A stretch of 64,000 bases of DNA from Novosphingobium sp. (GTDB lineage Bacteria > Pseudomonadota > Alphaproteobacteria > Sphingomonadales > Sphingomonadaceae). Location: positions 62,001 through 126,000 of the forward strand of contig NZ_JADZAT010000006.1 in assembly GCF_020852455.1 (NCBI RefSeq). The letters are read 5' to 3'. Position numbers and translations under genes: made by a program. The notes under the pieces are model-generated. The model did not search any database. It saw only the letters and a program-made list of their open reading frames with translations, and was not told where the DNA came from. Shown here in pieces: positions 7,971 to 49,736 of this stretch; the stretch's first letter is position 1, and each line of letters begins with the position of its first letter.

Positions 7971-9465
7971 CCCCGCGTTCGCCTTCCTCGATCCGCACCG
8001 GGCGGCCAAAGACCTTGCCCTTGCGCAGCTCGGCGCAGATCGCCGGGTCGGCCGAATTGGCGAGCACCCGGGCATCTCCCACCCGGGCCACCAGCGTGGC
8101 GGTCTCGCCGGTCTTGCCCGGCTGGATCGTGAAGGTTTCGGCCACGGCCTCACCATCATGGGCATCCAGCACGCGCCAGTGCGGCTTGATCTTTTCCAGG
8201 CTTTGCCAACGGCTTGCCGACCAGTCCGCAGGTTCTGTCGAATAGACCCCGGCGGCATATTTGCTCATGATCCCGCCGTTCGCACCGACCAGCACCTTGT
8301 CGCCCGGTTGGGCACGGCAGCGCTGGACGGCTTCGGCGATCGAGTGGCCGACGTAATTGTTCCCGGCTCCGCCGAAAAACGGCAGTCCGCCGGTCAGCGT
8401 CCAGCCGCGCGGATCGTCGCGATCGAGCCCGAAGGCATCGAGCAAGTTGAAAACCGGGATTGCAAAGCACGAATAAAGATCTGTCGCGGAAAGCTTTTCC
8501 CAGCTCGTCCCGGCAAGCTCAAGCGCGGTTGAGATTGCCGCGACTGCCGCCGGGCTCTTCTCGATGCTTTCGCGCGTCAGCATCGAGGGTTCGGCGCAGT
8601 CGGCGACCCCGTGCACATAGACCCAGCGGTCACTCGGCACCCCCAGACGGCGTGCCTCCCCGGCACTTGCGAGTACCACCGCAGCCCCCTGGTTGACCTG
8701 ATCGCGCGACACCACCAGCCGGCCATAGGGTTCGGCGACCAGCCGGTTGCGATCGGTCAGCGTGGCAAGCTCTTCCGCGCTGCGTTCGGTCGGCGCGGCG
8801 CTGTGCGGATTGGCGGCGGCAACCCGGGTGAAGGGGGCAAACAGCTTGCCGATCTCCAGCCGATAGTCGGCCAGGCTCAGCCCCAGCCGTTCGCGCCGGA
8901 CATTCTCGGCCAGGGCATAGCCGCCGATCGGCGCACCCACGCCGTGACGGATCGAGGTCATATCGACCACCCCGTCATAACCGGGTCCGCGATCCTCCAG
9001 GCTGCCGCGCCGCCGCTCGCTCCAGTCGCGGGTCTCGCCCCGGGCCAGCAGCGCGCGCATGGTCGAAATCGCTTCGGAGCCAACGATCGCGGCCAGCTTG
9101 CTGCGCCCGGCGGCGATCTCGGCCGCCAGTTCGCCGACCAGCCGCTGCGGCCCCTGCCCGCCAACCACTTCGAGGATCGCCCGGTCCGGATTGGCGCCGG
9201 CCCGCCGCGCAATCGCGCGCGGGGTGTTGTTGGCATGGCCGAACGGCGCGGTGTAGCGGGTGGCCGAAATTTCGAACTGGCGGATCGCGGCGATCGTATC
9301 GAGACTCTTCGCCAGACTGCGCTTGGCCCGGGCATCGGCAAAGGCCGCGCGCAGCGCAGCGCCGGCCAGGTCCATATGGCTCATCTCGGCATAGCCCGGT
9401 TCGCCCACGCGTTCCGAATATTGCCTGACCCCAATGATTACGGGGGTGTTGTCGGCTACGGTCAT
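7948..9465 (-). CDS. thiolase-family acetyl-CoA acetyltransferase
   Basis: VYVHGVADCAEPSMLTRES, SATDLYSCFAIPVFNLLDAFGL, LTGGLPFFGGAGNNYVGHSIAE: thiolase/SCP2-like motifs. Confidence 0.82.
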   Translation of the reverse strand: MTVADNTPVIIGVRQYSERVGEPGYAEMSHMDLAGAALRAAFADARAKRSLAKSLDTIAAIRQFEISATRYTAPFGHANNTPRAIARRAGANPDRAILEVVGGQGPQRLVGELAAEIAAGRSKLAAIVGSEAISTMRALLARGETRDWSERRRGSLEDRGPGYDGVVDMTSIRHGVGAPIGGYALAENVRRERLGLSLADYRLEIGKLFAPFTRVAAANPHSAAPTERSAEELATLTDRNRLVAEPYGRLVVSRDQVNQGAAVVLASAGEARRLGVPSDRWVYVHGVADCAEPSMLTRESIEKSPAAVAAISTALELAGTSWEKLSATDLYSCFAIPVFNLLDAFGLDRDDPRGWTLTGGLPFFGGAGNNYVGHSIAEAVQRCRAQPGDKVLVGANGGIMSKYAAGVYSTEPADWSASRWQSLEKIKPHWRVLDAHDGEAVAETFTIQPGKTGETATLVARVGDARVLANSADPAICAELRKGKVFGRPVRIEEGERGVNRFWFV

Positions 9466-10223
9466 CACAGCACCTGCCCGTCATCTACGGTCAGCACCGA
9501 CCCGGTGATATGCGCCGAGGCATCCGAAGCCAGCAGCAGCAACGGCGCGTCGAGCGCGTCGATCGGACACATCCGCTTGCGGTGGAAGGCCGCGATCTGG
9601 GCCTTGCCGCCCTCGCTCTCGAACCAGTCGCCATCGATCTCGGTGCGGATATAGCCGGGCTCGATCGTGTTGACGTTGATCCCCTGGCGCACCCATTCGC
9701 GCGCGAACTGCCGACCCAGGTGGGCAACCCCGGCCTTGGTCGCGGCATAGGCGGCATCGCCCTGCCCGGTCATCTGGGCAGTGATCGAGCCGATCAGCAC
9801 CACCCGCCCGCGCCCATGCGCCTTGAACCCGGCCGCGATCATCCGTCGCCCGCCTTCGCGCGCAGTCAGATAGACCCCGGTGAAATTGGTGTTCACGACA
9901 TTGGCCACATCGGCCAGCGGCAGGTCGATCGAGCGCCCGGCGGTCGCGATCCCGGCGTTGGCCACCACGGTATCGACCGTGCCCCACTTCGCCTCTGCCG
10001 CGTCATAGGCGGCCATGATCGAAATTTCGTCAGTCACGTCGATCGCCACCGGCAGCGCCGCTTCGCCGAGCTCTGCGGCCAGCGCCGCAACCCGGTCCAC
10101 CCGCCGCGCGCCGATCACCACTTTCGCGCCTTCGCGCACGAACAGCCGCGCGAAATGCGCGCCGAAGCCCGATGATGCACCGGTAATCAGGGCGATCCGC
10201 CCCGTCATTGCCTGCCTGTCCAC
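9465..10223 (-). CDS. SDR family NAD(P)-dependent oxidoreductase
   Basis: ALITGASSGFGAHFA cofactor motif, VVANAGIA, YAATKAGVAHL catalytic motif. Confidence 0.92.
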   Translation of the reverse strand: MDRQAMTGRIALITGASSGFGAHFARLFVREGAKVVIGARRVDRVAALAAELGEAALPVAIDVTDEISIMAAYDAAEAKWGTVDTVVANAGIATAGRSIDLPLADVANVVNTNFTGVYLTAREGGRRMIAAGFKAHGRGRVVLIGSITAQMTGQGDAAYAATKAGVAHLGRQFAREWVRQGINVNTIEPGYIRTEIDGDWFESEGGKAQIAAFHRKRMCPIDALDAPLLLLASDASAHITGSVLTVDDGQVL

Positions 10224-10298
10224 TGATCCCTCGCCTGATTGCCGTTTTCCCGATCAAGAGCGGAGAGCGGCCAGACGATCAAGCAAAATTGCGCAAGT

Positions 10299-10312
10299 TT
10301 GACATTGGTCAA
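10299..10312 (+). promoter_or_regulatory. FNR/FixK-type box TTGAC-ATTG-GTCAA
   Basis: Perfect TTGAY-N4-RTCAA dyad read directly. Confidence 0.75.
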
Positions 10313-10345
10313 GGCAAAGCCTGCTGCGGCGGATCAAATCTGCCC

Positions 10346-10428
10346 GCAAGGAACCGACAGGCTCCATTCCAAATTCACAGTTCTCCCCACCTGGAGCGGC
10401 CAAACACGTGATGGCCGCTCTCTTTTTT
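10346..10428 (+). ncRNA. candidate FNR-controlled small RNA (about 83 nt)
   Basis: FNR box centre about 40.5 nt upstream of a TSS implied by -10 TCAAAT (10334-10339); CU-rich segment UUCUCCCCACCU; ends in an intrinsic terminator. Confidence 0.45.
10394..10428 (+). terminator. rho-independent terminator
   Basis: GAGCGGCC (10394-10401), 11-nt loop, GGCCGCTC (10413-10420), then TCTTTTTT. Confidence 0.85.
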
Positions 10429-10457
10429 GTGCCGCAATGGCGAGTCAGGGATGGCTG

Positions 10458-10608
10458 CCCCTCTCCATTTTCGCGCAGCGCAAATGCGGAGGTGGATCGT
10501 CCGCAGGACGAGACGGAGGGGCCTTGAACGCTGATGCCGACACCCCTCCGTCAGCGGCTGACGCCGCTGCCACCTCCCCATTTGCGGCATTCGCCGAAAA
10601 TGGAGAGG
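10458..10608. repeat. long imperfect palindromic (REP/MITE-like) element
   Basis: Three nested inverted-repeat blocks: CCCTCTCCATTTTCG/CGAAAATGGAGAGGG, CGCAAATGCGGAGGTGG/CCACCTCCCCATTTGCG (1 mismatch), GACGGAGGGG/CCCCTCCGTC. Confidence 0.8.
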
Positions 10609-10620
10609 GTCTGGTGAGGC

Positions 10621-11934
10621 CTAGACCGCCGAACTGAACCGGCGAACCGAATCCTGGCGATAGGGATCGAACAGCGCCGCGACGGTGCGGGCATAGGGCA
10701 GGCCATCGGGCGCGATGGTCAGCGTGTCACCTGACAGGCTGGCAATGCCGCGTTCGATGAACGGGGCCAGCCGGGCCGCCGCCTCGCTGGCCAGATCGGG
10801 ATCGAGACTGGCAGTGCCATGGCACAGCAGCGCCTCGATCACCGCGCCGCGGCGCTGGTCATCGCGCGAACGCCGCACCCCGTGCGCGGCGGGCAGCATG
10901 TCCTGCGACAGCAGCATGCGATAGCGTCCGGCGTTCTTCTCGTTCTGGACCAGCAGATCGGGGAAACAGCCGATTGCCGATGCGCCCAGCCCGACCAGCA
11001 CTTCGGCCTGATCATCGGTGAAGCCCTGGAAATTGCGCCGCAGCGTGGCGTTGCGGACTGCCTTGGCCATCGGATCGCCGGGCTTGGCGAAATGGTCGAA
11101 GCCCACCGGCACATAGCCGGCCTCGGTCAGCAGGCGATAGCCGAACTGGGCCATGGCAAAGCGTTCGGCCTGGCCGGGCAGGTTGCTGCCATCGATCCGC
11201 CGCTGGCGCGGCAGCATGTGCGGGACATGGGCATAGCCGAACAGCGCGATCCGGTCGGCGCCCAGTTCGATCGTGCGCAGCAGCGTGGCTTCGAGTTCGA
11301 CCAGCGTCTGGCCCGGCAGGCCATACATCAGATCGAAATTGAGCGAGGTTACGCCGTGGGTGCGCAGCAGGTCGGTCGCGCGGGCCAGCAACTCATCGGG
11401 CTGGACCCGCCCGATCGCGGCCTGCAATGCGGGATCGAAGGTCTGCACGCCCAGGCTGGCATAGCGCACCCCGACCGCGCCCAGCACCTGCCCCCAGTCG
11501 GGCGTCAGGGTGCGCGGATCAAGCTCGATCGAATATTCCGGGTTTTCGAGCGGCATGTGCAGCGTGAGCGCATCGAGCAGCCGCAGGAAATCGATCGGGC
11601 TGATCGCATTGGGACTGCCCCCGCCAAAAGCGACGCGGCGCACCCCGGCGGCGTGGCCCAGCCGGACCCCGGTGATCGCAATCTCCCGGTGCAGCGAATC
11701 GAGGTAGTTCGACAGCCGCTGGGTCTTGTTCGCGGCGCCGGTGTTGCAGCCGCAGTACCAGCAGATCTTCTCGCAGAACGGGATGTGGAGATAGAGCGAC
11801 ACATCGCCGCTGGCCTTGCGCAGCGCGGCATCGGCATCGGCCGCGCCGACATCGCCCTTGAATTCGGCAGCGGTCGGAAAGCTGGTGTAGCGCGGGACCG
11901 GCGTTTCGAGCAGTTCGGGATAATACTTCCACAT
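10621..11934 (-). CDS. hemN: oxygen-independent coproporphyrinogen III oxidase
   Basis: LYLHIPFCEKICWYCGCNT radical-SAM CxxxCxxC motif; VAFGGGSPNAIS. Confidence 0.96.
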   Translation of the reverse strand: MWKYYPELLETPVPRYTSFPTAAEFKGDVGAADADAALRKASGDVSLYLHIPFCEKICWYCGCNTGAANKTQRLSNYLDSLHREIAITGVRLGHAAGVRRVAFGGGSPNAISPIDFLRLLDALTLHMPLENPEYSIELDPRTLTPDWGQVLGAVGVRYASLGVQTFDPALQAAIGRVQPDELLARATDLLRTHGVTSLNFDLMYGLPGQTLVELEATLLRTIELGADRIALFGYAHVPHMLPRQRRIDGSNLPGQAERFAMAQFGYRLLTEAGYVPVGFDHFAKPGDPMAKAVRNATLRRNFQGFTDDQAEVLVGLGASAIGCFPDLLVQNEKNAGRYRMLLSQDMLPAAHGVRRSRDDQRRGAVIEALLCHGTASLDPDLASEAAARLAPFIERGIASLSGDTLTIAPDGLPYARTVAALFDPYRQDSVRRFSSAV

Positions 11935-20007: not shown

Positions 20008-20021
20008 TTGACCGCGATCAA
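20008..20021. promoter_or_regulatory. FNR/FixK box TTGAC-CGCG-ATCAA between ccoN and ompW
   Basis: TTGAY-N4-RTCAA match; TGAAAT -10 for ccoN at 19986-19981 gives -40.5 spacing. Confidence 0.75.
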
Positions 20022-20963: not shown

Positions 20964-21662
20964 TCAACCGGCTTCGGCCATCAATCCTTCGCGGTCGAGG
21001 ATCACCACCTCACGGCGCGAAGGCAGGTCGATCAGCCCATCGGCCTTGAGTCTGGTGAACTGGCGGCTGACCGTTTCGATCGTCAGGCCCAGCACGTCCG
21101 CCACCTGCTGGCGCGAAAATGGCAGGGCGAACCGCCGCAGCGCCGAATCGGGCTGATCGATGCAGCCAGGCTGGACCAGCCGTTCCGACATTTCGAGCAG
21201 GAAGCTGGCCAGCTTTTCACCGGCCGACTTGCGGCCCAGCAACAACATCCAGCGGCGCGTGCGATCGAGTTCGGCCAGGGTGCGCTGCAACAGCTTGTGT
21301 TCAAGCCCGGGATGCTCGCGCGCGAAGGCGTCGAAATCCTTGCGGCTGAACACGCAGACCCGCGCCTCGGTCAGCGCGGTCACGCCGTGGCCGCTGGTCG
21401 ATCCGAACGGGCGGCCGATGAAATCGGAGGGATAGACCACGCCGACGATCTGCTCACGCCCATCCTCGGTCCCGGTCGACAGTTTGAGCACGCCATCGAT
21501 GACATTGGCGACGAGGACCGAATCCTCACCTTCCCACATCAGCGACTCGCCGGGTTCAAGCACCCGGCGGCGGCCAATGGCGTTCAAGGCTTTGAGTTCA
21601 TCGGTATCAAGCGACGAACAAATGGCGCGATTGCGCACAACACAGGTTTCGCAGGCGATCAT
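20964..21662 (-). CDS. Crp/Fnr family regulator with FNR-type 4-Cys set (FnrL/FixK-like)
   Basis: C4-X2-C7-X7-C15 plus C103; C-terminal HTH RQQVADVLGLTIETVSRQFTRLKADGLI. Confidence 0.92.
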   Translation of the reverse strand: MIACETCVVRNRAICSSLDTDELKALNAIGRRRVLEPGESLMWEGEDSVLVANVIDGVLKLSTGTEDGREQIVGVVYPSDFIGRPFGSTSGHGVTALTEARVCVFSRKDFDAFAREHPGLEHKLLQRTLAELDRTRRWMLLLGRKSAGEKLASFLLEMSERLVQPGCIDQPDSALRRFALPFSRQQVADVLGLTIETVSRQFTRLKADGLIDLPSRREVVILDREGLMAEAG

Positions 21663-45194: not shown

Positions 45195-46790
45195 ATGTCA
45201 TCGTCCGTGTCTTCGACCCTCCCCGCTTTGACCGCACTTGCCCGCGCGGGTGCCGTGGGGCGCGGGTGGGAGCTATTTGCCATGGCAGGCCATGCACAGC
45301 GGAGCGACGATCCTGCGGCGTTGGCAGTAAAGGGCCGCTTGCTCAAGGGCAGGGCCCGGCTCTGCGCCGGAATCGAGCAAGCCGGACTTTTTGCCGAAGC
45401 GGCAGCGGCCTACGCGTCGGCCAATACCCTTGCGCCCGCTCCCTACCTGGCGATCAACGCCGCGAGCCTGAACCTGTTGGCCGGGGATCACACTGCGGCG
45501 GCAGAGGGCGCGCGGGGCGTGCTGGCACGGCTCGATGGTCCGGAACAGCCAGAAGACACGCCCTATTTCCTCGCGGCCACCCGCGCGGAGGCCCTGCTCC
45601 TGCTAGGCGACCGCCCCGGTGCCGAAGCGGCGATGGCGCAGGCGGCAGCATTCGATCCCGATGGCTGGGCCGACCGCGCCGCGACGATCGCACAGCTGCG
45701 CGAAGTGGCCGAGGCCAGGGGCGATGATGCCGCATGGATCGATCGCTTTGCTCCGCCCGCCAGCCTGCATTTTGCAGGGCACATGGGACTGCGATCGGGG
45801 GGAGAGAGCGAAATGGCGCTGGTCCGCGCGCTCGATTCCTGGCTCGACCGCAGCTCGATCGGGTTCGCCTGGGGTGCGCTGGCCGCCGGGGCCGACATTG
45901 TCATTGCCGAACGCCTGCTGGCTCGGTGTATTGAGTTGCATCTGGTGTTGCCTTGTCCGCCTGCGCAGTTTGAAGAGCAATCGGTCAGTCCGGCTGGTGC
46001 GGACTGGGTGGCGCGCTATCGCCAGGTGCTGGACCGGGCCACTTCGATCCGTCAGGCCGCCGACAGCGCGACCTCGGTCCACGACCCGCTGGCTACGTTG
46101 CATGCCGGCGAACTGGCGATCGGCGGCGCACTGAGCAACGCTGCAACGCTTGCCTCTGCCGCTTGCCAGCTGATCGTGACCGATGCCGAGGGCGGTGGGG
46201 CCAACACCGCACGGCAGGCCCGGTTGTGGCAAGCAGTCTGGGGGCAGCAACACTGCCTGACGATTGCGCGCGATACCGCCGTCGAAGCGATGTTTCCCCC
46301 CGAACAGCCCGATCCGGCGCGGATTCTGGCGGTGCACCTGGCGATTGGGCTCGACGCCCTGATGGCCCCTGCACCGATGACCTCAGCGGCAATCCAGGAA
46401 CTGACAGCACCGGTCAACGATGTTCTTGCCGAACTGCCACCGGGCGCCGTGCGGGCTTCGCCGGGTCGCTGGGACGCGGTGATCGAGGATCTCGACCTGG
46501 CCCTGTCAACGATCGCCCGGCTGGCCGGACACCCTGATCTGGCAGTCGGCGCGCACCTGGCCATCGCGCCAGTGCTGCATGACCGGCCCAGTCAGGCCAT
46601 GGTACCCTTTGGGCCAGCCCCTGCCCTGGCCCAGCGCTTGATGACACTTGCGCCGCCCGGCGTAACGCTGGCCAGCGGTCACCTGGCAGCGGCCATGGCG
46701 GTACGTGGCTCAGGGCTGCTGCGCAGCGAGTTCTATCATCCCGGCGAGGAAACAGCGGCCGGGGCGATCCATGCCCTGATCGCTCAATAA
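45195..46790 (+). CDS. TPR-like protein with SLOG-like and degenerate nucleotidyl-cyclase-like regions
   Basis: FAGHMGLRSGGESEMALVRALDSWLDRSSIGFAWGALAAGADIVIAERLLARCIELHLVLPCPPAQFEEQSV resembles a SLOG/Rossmann segment. Confidence 0.6.
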   Translation: MSSSVSSTLPALTALARAGAVGRGWELFAMAGHAQRSDDPAALAVKGRLLKGRARLCAGIEQAGLFAEAAAAYASANTLAPAPYLAINAASLNLLAGDHTAAAEGARGVLARLDGPEQPEDTPYFLAATRAEALLLLGDRPGAEAAMAQAAAFDPDGWADRAATIAQLREVAEARGDDAAWIDRFAPPASLHFAGHMGLRSGGESEMALVRALDSWLDRSSIGFAWGALAAGADIVIAERLLARCIELHLVLPCPPAQFEEQSVSPAGADWVARYRQVLDRATSIRQAADSATSVHDPLATLHAGELAIGGALSNAATLASAACQLIVTDAEGGGANTARQARLWQAVWGQQHCLTIARDTAVEAMFPPEQPDPARILAVHLAIGLDALMAPAPMTSAAIQELTAPVNDVLAELPPGAVRASPGRWDAVIEDLDLALSTIARLAGHPDLAVGAHLAIAPVLHDRPSQAMVPFGPAPALAQRLMTLAPPGVTLASGHLAAAMAVRGSGLLRSEFYHPGEETAAGAIHALIAQ

Positions 46791-47449
46791 ACCAGCTCTT
46801 CCAGCCGGTGCGGTGCCACCAGTTCCAGCCCGCCCGCAATCCGCCGCAGCACTCCGCGCTTCTCCAGCCCCGAAACCGTCCGTGAAACCGTTTCGCGGGT
46901 GGACTGCACGTCGAGCGCCAGTTCCGAAAAGACCGGGATCGGGCTGATCGTACCGCCCCCGGCCCGGGCCCGGCGAAGCAGTTCTGCAGCGATCCGGCCC
47001 GTGGCGGACAGCAGTGCCGTTTCAACCATCCGCTGCCGCATCGCCGCAATTCTGACCGAAAGAAACCGGGCCATGGCCAGGGCAACCGCTGGATAGCTTT
47101 CCATCAACCGGACCATCACCGAGGCGGCGAAATGCAGCGCCGCGCCCTCGCCCAGCGCCTCAACCTGGGCGCCTGACTGATCGGTACCGCTGCCAGCCAG
47201 ATCGCCAAAGAACTCCCCCGGGCCGATGGTATGCAGCACCAGGCTCGCCCCTTCTCGGCCATAGGCAATTTCAGCGGCACGGCCCGCGGTCAGCAGGCTG
47301 GCAGCATCGTCGCCTTCGGCGCGGGGCCACAGCACTGCGCCGCGCCCATGCCCGGCCTCGCGGCCCAGCGTCGCAATCGTTGTGGCAAGCGCATCGCCGC
47401 AGCCAAATGCACTGCGCAGGACAGCCAGCGGATCGGGCCGATCAGTCAT
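46784..47449 (-). CDS. Crp/Fnr family regulator (Dnr/NnrR-like, without an FNR 4-Cys set)
   Basis: cNMP-binding-like domain and HTH DVQSTRETVSRTVSGLEKRGVLRRI; start ATG at 47449. Confidence 0.8.
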   Translation of the reverse strand: MTDRPDPLAVLRSAFGCGDALATTIATLGREAGHGRGAVLWPRAEGDDAASLLTAGRAAEIAYGREGASLVLHTIGPGEFFGDLAGSGTDQSGAQVEALGEGAALHFAASVMVRLMESYPAVALAMARFLSVRIAAMRQRMVETALLSATGRIAAELLRRARAGGGTISPIPVFSELALDVQSTRETVSRTVSGLEKRGVLRRIAGGLELVAPHRLEELVY

Positions 47450-47637
47450 CCTTGGCCGCCCGTGCCACACCTGCTCGCCGGCCGGCATATCCTGTGAGTG
47501 CCCAAGTGTGACATTGGTTCGATTTCCTCGCGCCGTCAGACCGATAGCCGTCGGCCCAAACTGGTGCCACGCAACACCGGGATCGGCAATCGGCAATCGC
47601 GCGGCCAGCCGCGAGAAGCAATCTCCACCTGACGTTG

Positions 47638-47684: not shown

Positions 47685-48893
47685 ATGAATCAAGCCAAAC
47701 TCAAGTTCGCCCTGTTTCTCGCCACCGCTCTTGGCGCCGCTGGTGCTGCCCAGGCTGACACGGCCAAGCCGCTGACCCCTTATGCCGATATCCGTTACCG
47801 GCTTGAGATTGTCGATCAGGCGGGCCTGCCCAATGATGCCACCGCATCGACCCTCAGGCTGCGTGCCGGGGTTCGAACCGCCGAATGGAACGGGCTTTCG
47901 GCCGTGGTTGAGGGCGAGGCGATCGCGGTGCTGGGCGCCGCGAGTTACAACGACACCGTCAACGGCAAGGTGGCCTATCCGATCGTCGCCGATCGCGGCG
48001 ATGTGGTGCTCAACCAGGCCTTCCTGCGCTGGCGCCCGGTCAAGCAGGTCGAACTGACCGGAGGACGGCAGGCGATCAACCTCGATAACCAGCGCTGGGT
48101 CGGTTCGGTCGGCTGGCGCCAGAACGACCAGACCTTTGACGCCGGACGCCTGGTGATGAAGCCGGTCAAGGACCTGTCGATCGACTATTTCTATGCCTGG
48201 CGGGTCAACCGGGTGTTCGGCCCGGATTCGGCCCAGGGCATCTGGCGCAACACCGATATCCATTCGGTGCGCGCCGCCTATGCGATCAAGGACGTCGGCA
48301 CGCTGTCGGCCTATGGACTGTGGCTGGATATTCCCTCCTCTCCGGCCAACTCGTCACGGACCCTGGGCGTGCGGATGGCTGGCGAGCGTAAGGTCGGCAA
48401 GCAGGCCAAGCTGCTCTATGCCGTCGAATATGCTCGTCAGCAGGACTTCGGAGTCAATCCGGCCAGCTACGACCTCTCGTACTTCCTAGCCGAACCAGGT
48501 CTGGGTTATGGACCCTTCACCCTGAAGGGCGGGTTCGAGCGGCTGGAAGGCAACGGCAGCGCGGCGGTGCAGAGCCCGCTCGCCACGCTGCACGCCTTCA
48601 ACGGCTGGGCCGACAAGTTCCTGACCACGCCGACGCGCGGCCTGCGCGATATCTACCTCGATGCCAGCTGGAAGGCTGCCAAGGGACCGTTCAAGGGACT
48701 GGGGCTGCGCGCCGCCTGGCACGATTACAATTCGACAGTCGGCAGCCTCAACTATGGCCAGGAATGGAACGGCCAGATCAGCTATCCGATCGGCAAGCAC
48801 CTGACCGTGCTGGGCAAGGTCGCGCGCTATGACGCAGATGCCTTCGCCACCGATACGACCAAGTTCTGGTTCAGCCTTGAGGCGAAGTTCTAG
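47685..48893 (+). CDS. alginate-export/porin-family outer membrane protein
   Basis: Signal peptide MNQAKLKFALFLATALGAAGAAQA; YADIRYRLEIVDQAG...GRQAINLDNQRWVGSVGWRQNDQTFDAG; C-terminal Phe. Confidence 0.82.
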   Translation: MNQAKLKFALFLATALGAAGAAQADTAKPLTPYADIRYRLEIVDQAGLPNDATASTLRLRAGVRTAEWNGLSAVVEGEAIAVLGAASYNDTVNGKVAYPIVADRGDVVLNQAFLRWRPVKQVELTGGRQAINLDNQRWVGSVGWRQNDQTFDAGRLVMKPVKDLSIDYFYAWRVNRVFGPDSAQGIWRNTDIHSVRAAYAIKDVGTLSAYGLWLDIPSSPANSSRTLGVRMAGERKVGKQAKLLYAVEYARQQDFGVNPASYDLSYFLAEPGLGYGPFTLKGGFERLEGNGSAAVQSPLATLHAFNGWADKFLTTPTRGLRDIYLDASWKAAKGPFKGLGLRAAWHDYNSTVGSLNYGQEWNGQISYPIGKHLTVLGKVARYDADAFATDTTKFWFSLEAKF

Positions 48894-49585
48894 TCCATAT
48901 CATCGCGGACCGGATCGGGCCGCGAGAATGCTTCGAGCGCGGCGCGGTCGGTGATTGCCACTGTCGCGCCGTCAACCTCCAGCCCATGCCCGCCCAGCAC
49001 AGCAAAAGCGCGCGACAGGTTTTCGGGCGTCATGCCCAGCAGCGATGCCAGCAAGCGCTTTTCGGCCTTGAGCTGAACCCGCCCGGTTCCGCCCTGGCGG
49101 ATCTCCTGCTGCAACAGCAGGTTGCCCAGCCGCTCGGCCGATTGGCGCAGCTTCATGTCGGTCAAGGCCCGGACCAGGTCGCGATAGGCCAGCGCCAGTT
49201 CGCGCATGGTCGCCTGCATCAGCGCGCAGTCTTCCTTCACCACTTCGCGCACCAGCGCGGCCGGAACCAGCAGGATCCGAGAAGAGGCCAGCGTGCGCGC
49301 CGACATCAGATAGGGCATGTCGGTAACCACCGCGGCCAGGATGAAGCTGGTGACCGGCTCGACGATCCGCATCGTCGTGTCGCGGCCCGCGCTGGTGGCA
49401 TAGAGTTCAGCCAGACCATCGACCAGCACGTGCAGGAAATCCGGCCGCTGGCCCATTTCGAACAGTGTCAACTGGGGCGGAAAGACCTGCAGGAACGATC
49501 CTGAAAAGATCCGTTCGCGCTGGGCATCCTCCATTTCGCGAAACAGCGGAAGATGAGCAATTTCAGGCTTTTCACCGGGACGCAC
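48890..49585 (-). CDS. Crp/Fnr family regulator (NarR-like position; GTG start)
   Basis: cNMP-binding-like domain; HTH LKAEKRLLASLLGMTPENLSRAFAVLGGHGL; divergent from narK. Confidence 0.82.
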   Translation of the reverse strand: MRPGEKPEIAHLPLFREMEDAQRERIFSGSFLQVFPPQLTLFEMGQRPDFLHVLVDGLAELYATSAGRDTTMRIVEPVTSFILAAVVTDMPYLMSARTLASSRILLVPAALVREVVKEDCALMQATMRELALAYRDLVRALTDMKLRQSAERLGNLLLQQEIRQGGTGRVQLKAEKRLLASLLGMTPENLSRAFAVLGGHGLEVDGATVAITDRAALEAFSRPDPVRDDMD

Positions 49586-49629: not shown

Positions 49630-49643
49630 TTGATGTTCATCAA
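49630..49643 (-). promoter_or_regulatory. perfect FNR box TTGAT-GTTC-ATCAA
   Basis: Exact consensus; about 45 bp upstream of the divergent regulator start. Confidence 0.85.
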
Positions 49644-49722: not shown

Positions 49723-49736
49723 TTGATCCCGATCAA
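49723..49736 (+). promoter_or_regulatory. perfect FNR box TTGAT-CCCG-ATCAA
   Basis: Exact consensus; centred about 68 bp upstream of narK ATG. Confidence 0.85.

Follow-up and report, generated by a model that had tools for sequence, protein, structure and literature searches.

A predicted FNR-activated small RNA gene with an anti-Shine-Dalgarno seed, conserved across Novosphingobium

Three elements follow one another on the plus strand at 10299-10428 of the window (the whole 64,000-nt stretch of Novosphingobium DNA analysed here): a perfect FNR box, a -10 element and a predicted sRNA closed by an intrinsic terminator. An SDR-family dehydrogenase gene (9465-10223, minus strand) is divergent from the sRNA, and hemN (10621-11934, minus strand; TIGR00538 above cut-off) is convergent with it, in a low-oxygen neighbourhood. 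The presumed activator is the FNR-family regulator encoded at 20964-21662 on the minus strand. An N-terminal Cys cluster and an E-SR recognition helix are visible in this protein, which has cNMP_binding and HTH_Crp_2 domains and whose best NCBIfam model is FnrL (233 bits, below the cut-off of 300). The space between the sRNA and hemN holds a MITE-like palindromic interspersed repeat of ~158 nt (10455-10612; arms CCCTCTCCATTTTCG/CGAAAATGGAGAGGG), of which the genome carries about 15 near-full-length copies, ~73-84% identical, together with fragments.

Perfect boxes of the form TTGAY-N4-RTCAA are strongly enriched in the 64-kb window, with 5 found against 0.09 expected; none of 100 shuffles reached 5. 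The one ahead of the sRNA, TTGACATTGGTCAA (10299-10312, plus strand), was read directly, exactly where the initial annotation had reported a TTGAC-N4-GTCAA box. Another, at 20008-20021 between ccoN and an OmpW-family gene, probably serves the cbb3 operon. Two more (49630-49643 and 49723-49736) precede or coincide with the start of a 1023-aa frame composed of two MFS halves, the second of NarK type (TIGR00886 above cut-off). Next to this frame are two regulator genes, one of FtrB type (48890-49585) and another of Crp/Fnr type (46784-47596), and nitrate use may possibly be under FNR control there.

Alignment of 96 loci on their boxes reveals one strong further column: in 93 of them an A stands at +30.5 nt, counted from the centre of the box; many of these loci were picked by a pattern of box plus seed, and both this A and the 5' hairpin described below lie outside that pattern. 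If the box is centred at -41.5, this A is the -11 A of a -10 element. In the window it falls at 10336, which sets the -10 element as CAAATC (10335-10340), the predicted start near 10347 and the box centre (10305.5) at the class II position. The TCAAAT hexamer that had been proposed as the -10 element is indeed present at 10334-10339, but its register moves to 10335-10340, and the earlier estimate of a start near 10346 with the box at -40.5 gives way to ~10347 and -41.5. No such conservation is seen at the mirror -11 position of the opposite strand, which points the promoter towards the sRNA; for the same reason we rejected a box serving the divergent SDR gene, on whose box side there is no conserved -10 element. 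A TTGAY-N4-RTCAA box centred at -41.5 together with a -10 element is the sequence signature of a class II FNR promoter, and in Sphingopyxis granuli, FNR boxes placed by dRNA-seq read TTGAc/t-N4-g/aTCAA and are active at -41.5 (PMC7713065).

The association of box and RNA also holds among modules gathered with no box requirement (n=60): a perfect box lies within 140 nt in 48 of them, where chance would supply one in about 1 in 2000 loci, and ~1.3 kb upstream in 7 more. A generic scan for consensus promoters and terminators reports neither at 10299-10428. This silence follows from the scan itself, which limits loops to 8 nt, excluding the hairpin of this locus, and demands a sigma-70 -35 hexamer. 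An activator-dependent promoter can do without that hexamer.

The predicted sRNA spans ~82 nt (10347-10428, plus strand), its start taken from the -11 A and its end from the terminator; in relatives, predicted transcripts are 72-123 nt. Its 5' hairpin (10350-10365) is short here and has a longer, covarying form in relatives; it is present in every lowest-energy fold across 94 loci. Compared with dinucleotide shuffles, the 5' segment has a mean z of -2.6, with z < -2 in 64 of the 94. Among the 21 pairs compared within a clade of 19, 8 have changed on both sides, versus 1.4 in shuffles and 1-3 when the alignment is slid, one example being the swap of GCACCG/CGGTGC for GCGAAG/CTTCGC. The terminator (10393-10428) combines a 10-bp GC-rich stem with TCTTTTTT: the arms GAGCGGCC (10394-10401) and GGCCGCTC (10413-10420) are followed directly by the run at 10421-10428, and the 83-nt segment folds with the 10-bp stem intact (z = -2.2). 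Its 8-bp core is paired in 11 of 11 loci, with compensatory changes. Both helices, the 5' hairpin and the terminator stem, have thus changed in a compensatory manner, as the initial annotation had proposed to check, and the GC stem and U-run it had marked at 10394-10428 are in place.

A box and a -10 element could equally drive a small ORF, and the locus might then encode a short FNR-controlled peptide. We consider this barely credible. No start codon precedes the terminator in the window, where the sole GTG and ATG sit in the terminator loop, in agreement with the earlier statement that no convincing plus-strand CDS uses this promoter. Nor is a small ORF conserved in the 94 loci, including the codon-selected frame across 10346-10428 that had been named as grounds for abandoning the sRNA reading: the offset of the seed is spread over all three frames, an ATG precedes it in 12 of the loci, and an ORF of at least 10 codons is found in 17. 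The unit instead shows the sequence features of a trans-acting sRNA gene, namely its own promoter, a length within 50-250 nt, conserved structure, an intrinsic terminator and no conserved ORF.

The hairpins are separated by a linker that holds a predicted anti-Shine-Dalgarno seed, UUCUCCCCACCU (10381-10392, plus strand; TTCTCCCCACCT by direct reading of the DNA). The linker has the form UUCUCCCC-N-M-CU, and its invariant UUCUCCCC (TTCTCCCC in the DNA) is complementary to GGGGAGAA, a sequence of ribosome-binding type. The seed is predicted to be single-stranded, with a mean unpaired probability of 0.90 over the 94 loci. The CU-rich segment singled out in the initial annotation is not only present, it is the most conserved part of the predicted RNA.

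When 151 nt of the locus were compared by BLAST with 100 relatives, one short conserved block emerged, at query positions 89-148, and ten genomes of the same genus shared it. These loci share TTCTCCCC-N-M-CT, the GC stem and the T-run, and most also carry an upstream perfect FNR box that BLAST left unaligned. A covariance model built on the 3' module alone (UUCUCCCC-N-M-CU, GC stem and U-run) finds it in 160 of 196 Novosphingobium genomes at E<=0.05 and in 78 at E<=1e-5; the weaker of these matches may include plain terminators. Across 301 genomes of the order, strong matches are confined to the genus, and those weak ones in other genera that were inspected proved to be, for the most part, GC-rich terminators that follow ORFs and lack the seed. 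The exact box-seed pattern was found in none of the 384 other genomes among 385 sampled from the class. It occurs in one sampled genus besides Novosphingobium, of the same family, in a copy that adjoins an FNR-like gene of 38% identity and has no U-run. In GTDB the pattern returned 83 stretches, nearly all (~80) named Novosphingobium or sphingomonad MAGs, with N. subterraneum, N. taihuense and N. nitrogenifigens among the culturable species that have the locus; two records, one from Oscillospiraceae and one from Algoriphagus, were taken as chance matches. By these comparisons the predicted sRNA gene is kept across most of the genus, with box, -10 element and terminator all conserved in relatives, as the oxygen-responsive reading had anticipated.

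The module occurs in three arrangements, and hemN, cbb3 or fnr genes lie within the same stretch in 48 of 52 distinct loci. In the first, that of the window, it is a stand-alone gene: no plus-strand gene lies downstream, fnr is 10 kb away, and the order SDR - sRNA - hemN recurs in the clade. In the second, represented by 42 loci, an FNR box precedes the unit and fnr follows it on the same strand, the gap from terminator to fnr start measuring 59-153 nt. Some of the unit's function may accordingly lie in cis. In its strict form, this becomes a leader or attenuator through which FNR drives its own gene, most transcripts ending at the terminator and copies elsewhere being relics or derivatives. 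We regard the strict form as rather improbable. The window's clade has no downstream gene to attenuate, yet seed, stem, box and -10 are conserved there, and termination needs no invariant seed. Cis and trans roles could coexist in one module.

The third arrangement is restricted to one clade, in which a ligAB-like operon intervenes between the box, ~1.3 kb upstream, and the module at the operon's 3' end. The second gene of the operon codes for an extradiol dioxygenase of class III (Pfam LigB). Seven loci (L010, L012, L049, L054, L057, L058 and L076) have a perfect FNR box ahead of such an operon and the sRNA module at its 3' end, an order that would place aromatic ring cleavage under FNR control. 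This clade is what might be expected if the module were a terminator or 3'-UTR element that is conserved but regulates nothing in trans, as is a boxless look-alike behind an ORF elsewhere in the window's own genome. Against such an element, which we think very unlikely, terminators need neither an invariant UUCUCCCC linker nor a covarying 5' hairpin, and the majority of copies lack an ORF and possess an FNR promoter of their own. The look-alike (G000:C32:226617-226682) was the second match in this genome; it has CCTCTCCCACCTGGGGCG (CCTCTCCCACCT) and a terminator immediately after a stop codon, and we set it aside as lacking an FNR box.

We conclude that 10299-10428 is probably the gene of an FNR-activated, trans-acting sRNA conserved across Novosphingobium. 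Sequence evidence supports the architecture of the promoter, the structure of the transcript, the invariance of the seed, conservation throughout the genus and linkage to cbb3, hemN and fnr; we infer the RNA itself, its activation by FNR in vivo, silencing as its way of acting and the help of Hfq. The oxygen-responsive sRNA first suggested for this locus has in this way become a well-supported prediction, the computable tests (conservation, covariation and the lack of an ORF) having come out in its favour.

In the mechanism we propose, a fall in oxygen would lead the FNR-type protein (20964-21662) to bind the box at -41.5. Transcription would begin near 10347 and stop at the terminator near 10428, and the RNA would fold into the 5' hairpin, the open UUCUCCCC-N-M-CU linker, and the terminator hairpin with its U-tail. 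The linker could then pair with Shine-Dalgarno regions of the GGGGAGAA type and block translation of mRNAs unwanted at low oxygen, probably with the assistance of Hfq. Hfq is encoded in the genome by a 221-aa open frame with two tandem Hfq domains (L303/L304, G000:C14:2283-2711), unlike the single-domain Hfq of E. coli. Silencing in trans at low oxygen is what we infer from this encoded Hfq taken together with anti-Shine-Dalgarno silencing by NfeR1 and the effect of SuhB and Hfq on ThnR, both discussed below.

Targets are the weakest part of the case. The best candidate in this genome is an MFS gene (G000:C28:277964) at which a 13-nt perfect complement of the seed covers the ribosome site (-28.4 kcal/mol); it is also found in G170. 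GGGGAGAA is retained before the genes of three relatives, although its role as a ribosome site may be enough to preserve it. The MFS gene itself is not found throughout the genus: of 36 sampled congeners, only 8 have a match at E<=1e-70. Exact 11-nt complements before ATG, present in only 53 of 196 genomes, yielded no genus-wide target: few matches ahead of start codons recur, they point to no obvious shared gene, and part of them are the antisense strand of the sRNA itself. Energy ranking of the window's genes against the seed likewise gave no convincing target.

Novosphingobium is studied for its degradation of aromatic pollutants and lignin compounds, which is oxygen-using chemistry. A conserved FNR-driven sRNA would give the oxygen response of the genus a post-transcriptional arm, and the locus makes available a defined FNR-sRNA circuit whose seed is already named. 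A natural comparison is also at hand, since one RNA occurs free-standing, in the leader of fnr and at the 3' end of an operon. More tentatively, and with the balance somewhat against it, one could envision a single anti-Shine-Dalgarno sRNA module kept under FNR control as stand-alone gene, fnr 5' leader and ligAB-like operon 3' end, such that fnr transcription in many species would release its own repressing sRNA. If so, the post-transcriptional arm would be built into the FNR regulon itself, and might both feed back on fnr and govern the oxygen-consuming breakdown of aromatics.

The roles of sRNAs in low-oxygen adaptation have been described in other bacteria, and the initial annotation had drawn an analogy with FnrS and PcrZ. 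The analogy holds for the logic of an FNR-driven sRNA and does not extend to sequence. FnrS of E. coli is an sRNA that FNR activates in the switch to anaerobic growth and that represses genes the cell can spare when oxygen is absent (PMC8139620), but its seed differs, and its Rfam model has no match at the gathering threshold in the window nor at E<=10 on 10250-10620. PcrZ of Rhodobacter sphaeroides is, like the RNA predicted here, an alphaproteobacterial low-oxygen sRNA, dependent on FnrL and PrrA (PMC8139620). Its control by FnrL is perhaps indirect and it represses photosynthesis genes, whereas the Novosphingobium locus has a perfect box at -41.5. At gathering thresholds, Rfam gave one match in the whole window, a tRNA, and no sRNA family; matches to MIR1858, UCA1 and similar models were judged to be chance, that to MIR1858 falling on the palindromic repeat.

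The nearest Rfam sRNA model is SuhB/MmgR (RF00519), whose members are also short RNAs with a hairpin, a CU-rich linker and then a terminator. Sphingopyxis SuhB binds the thnR 5' UTR with Hfq and lowers ThnR translation (PMC6563040). The Novosphingobium RNA might be a divergent member of this family brought under FNR control, a claim that would leave the mechanism unchanged and alter its ancestry. RF00519 is the best sRNA model match for both the window and a second locus, L013, the three elements come in the same order, and SuhB-type genes are multicopy in the genus (up to 26 RF00519 matches per genome at E<=10, several of them clustered). We nonetheless find such an origin unlikely: the scores of 15.4 bits (window) and 24.9 bits (L013) fall short of the gathering score of 41, this genome encodes a true SuhB at a separate site (53 bits), and the similarity is largely one of architecture. 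Sphingopyxis suhB tracks growth rate and has no known FNR control.

In Sphingopyxis granuli TFA, the FNR/FnrN regulon shares the box consensus and the -41.5 position and includes ccoN and hemN2; the paper describing it names no sRNA (PMC7713065). We found no description of the Novosphingobium sRNA in the literature, of which subscription papers were covered in small part. The closest likeness in seed is to NfeR1 (alpha-r14), in which an ultraconserved, unpaired, C-rich anti-Shine-Dalgarno seed set among variable stems masks ribosome sites and so silences targets in other alphaproteobacteria (PMC10746234). NfeR1 has three hairpins, each with CCUCCUCCC, the hallmark of alpha-r14; the Novosphingobium RNA departs from it, having two hairpins, a single linker seed (UUCUCCCCNMCU) and a different regulator. 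Comparable to FnrS and PcrZ in logic and akin to NfeR1 in its seed, the predicted RNA appears to represent a new and apparently undescribed sRNA family.
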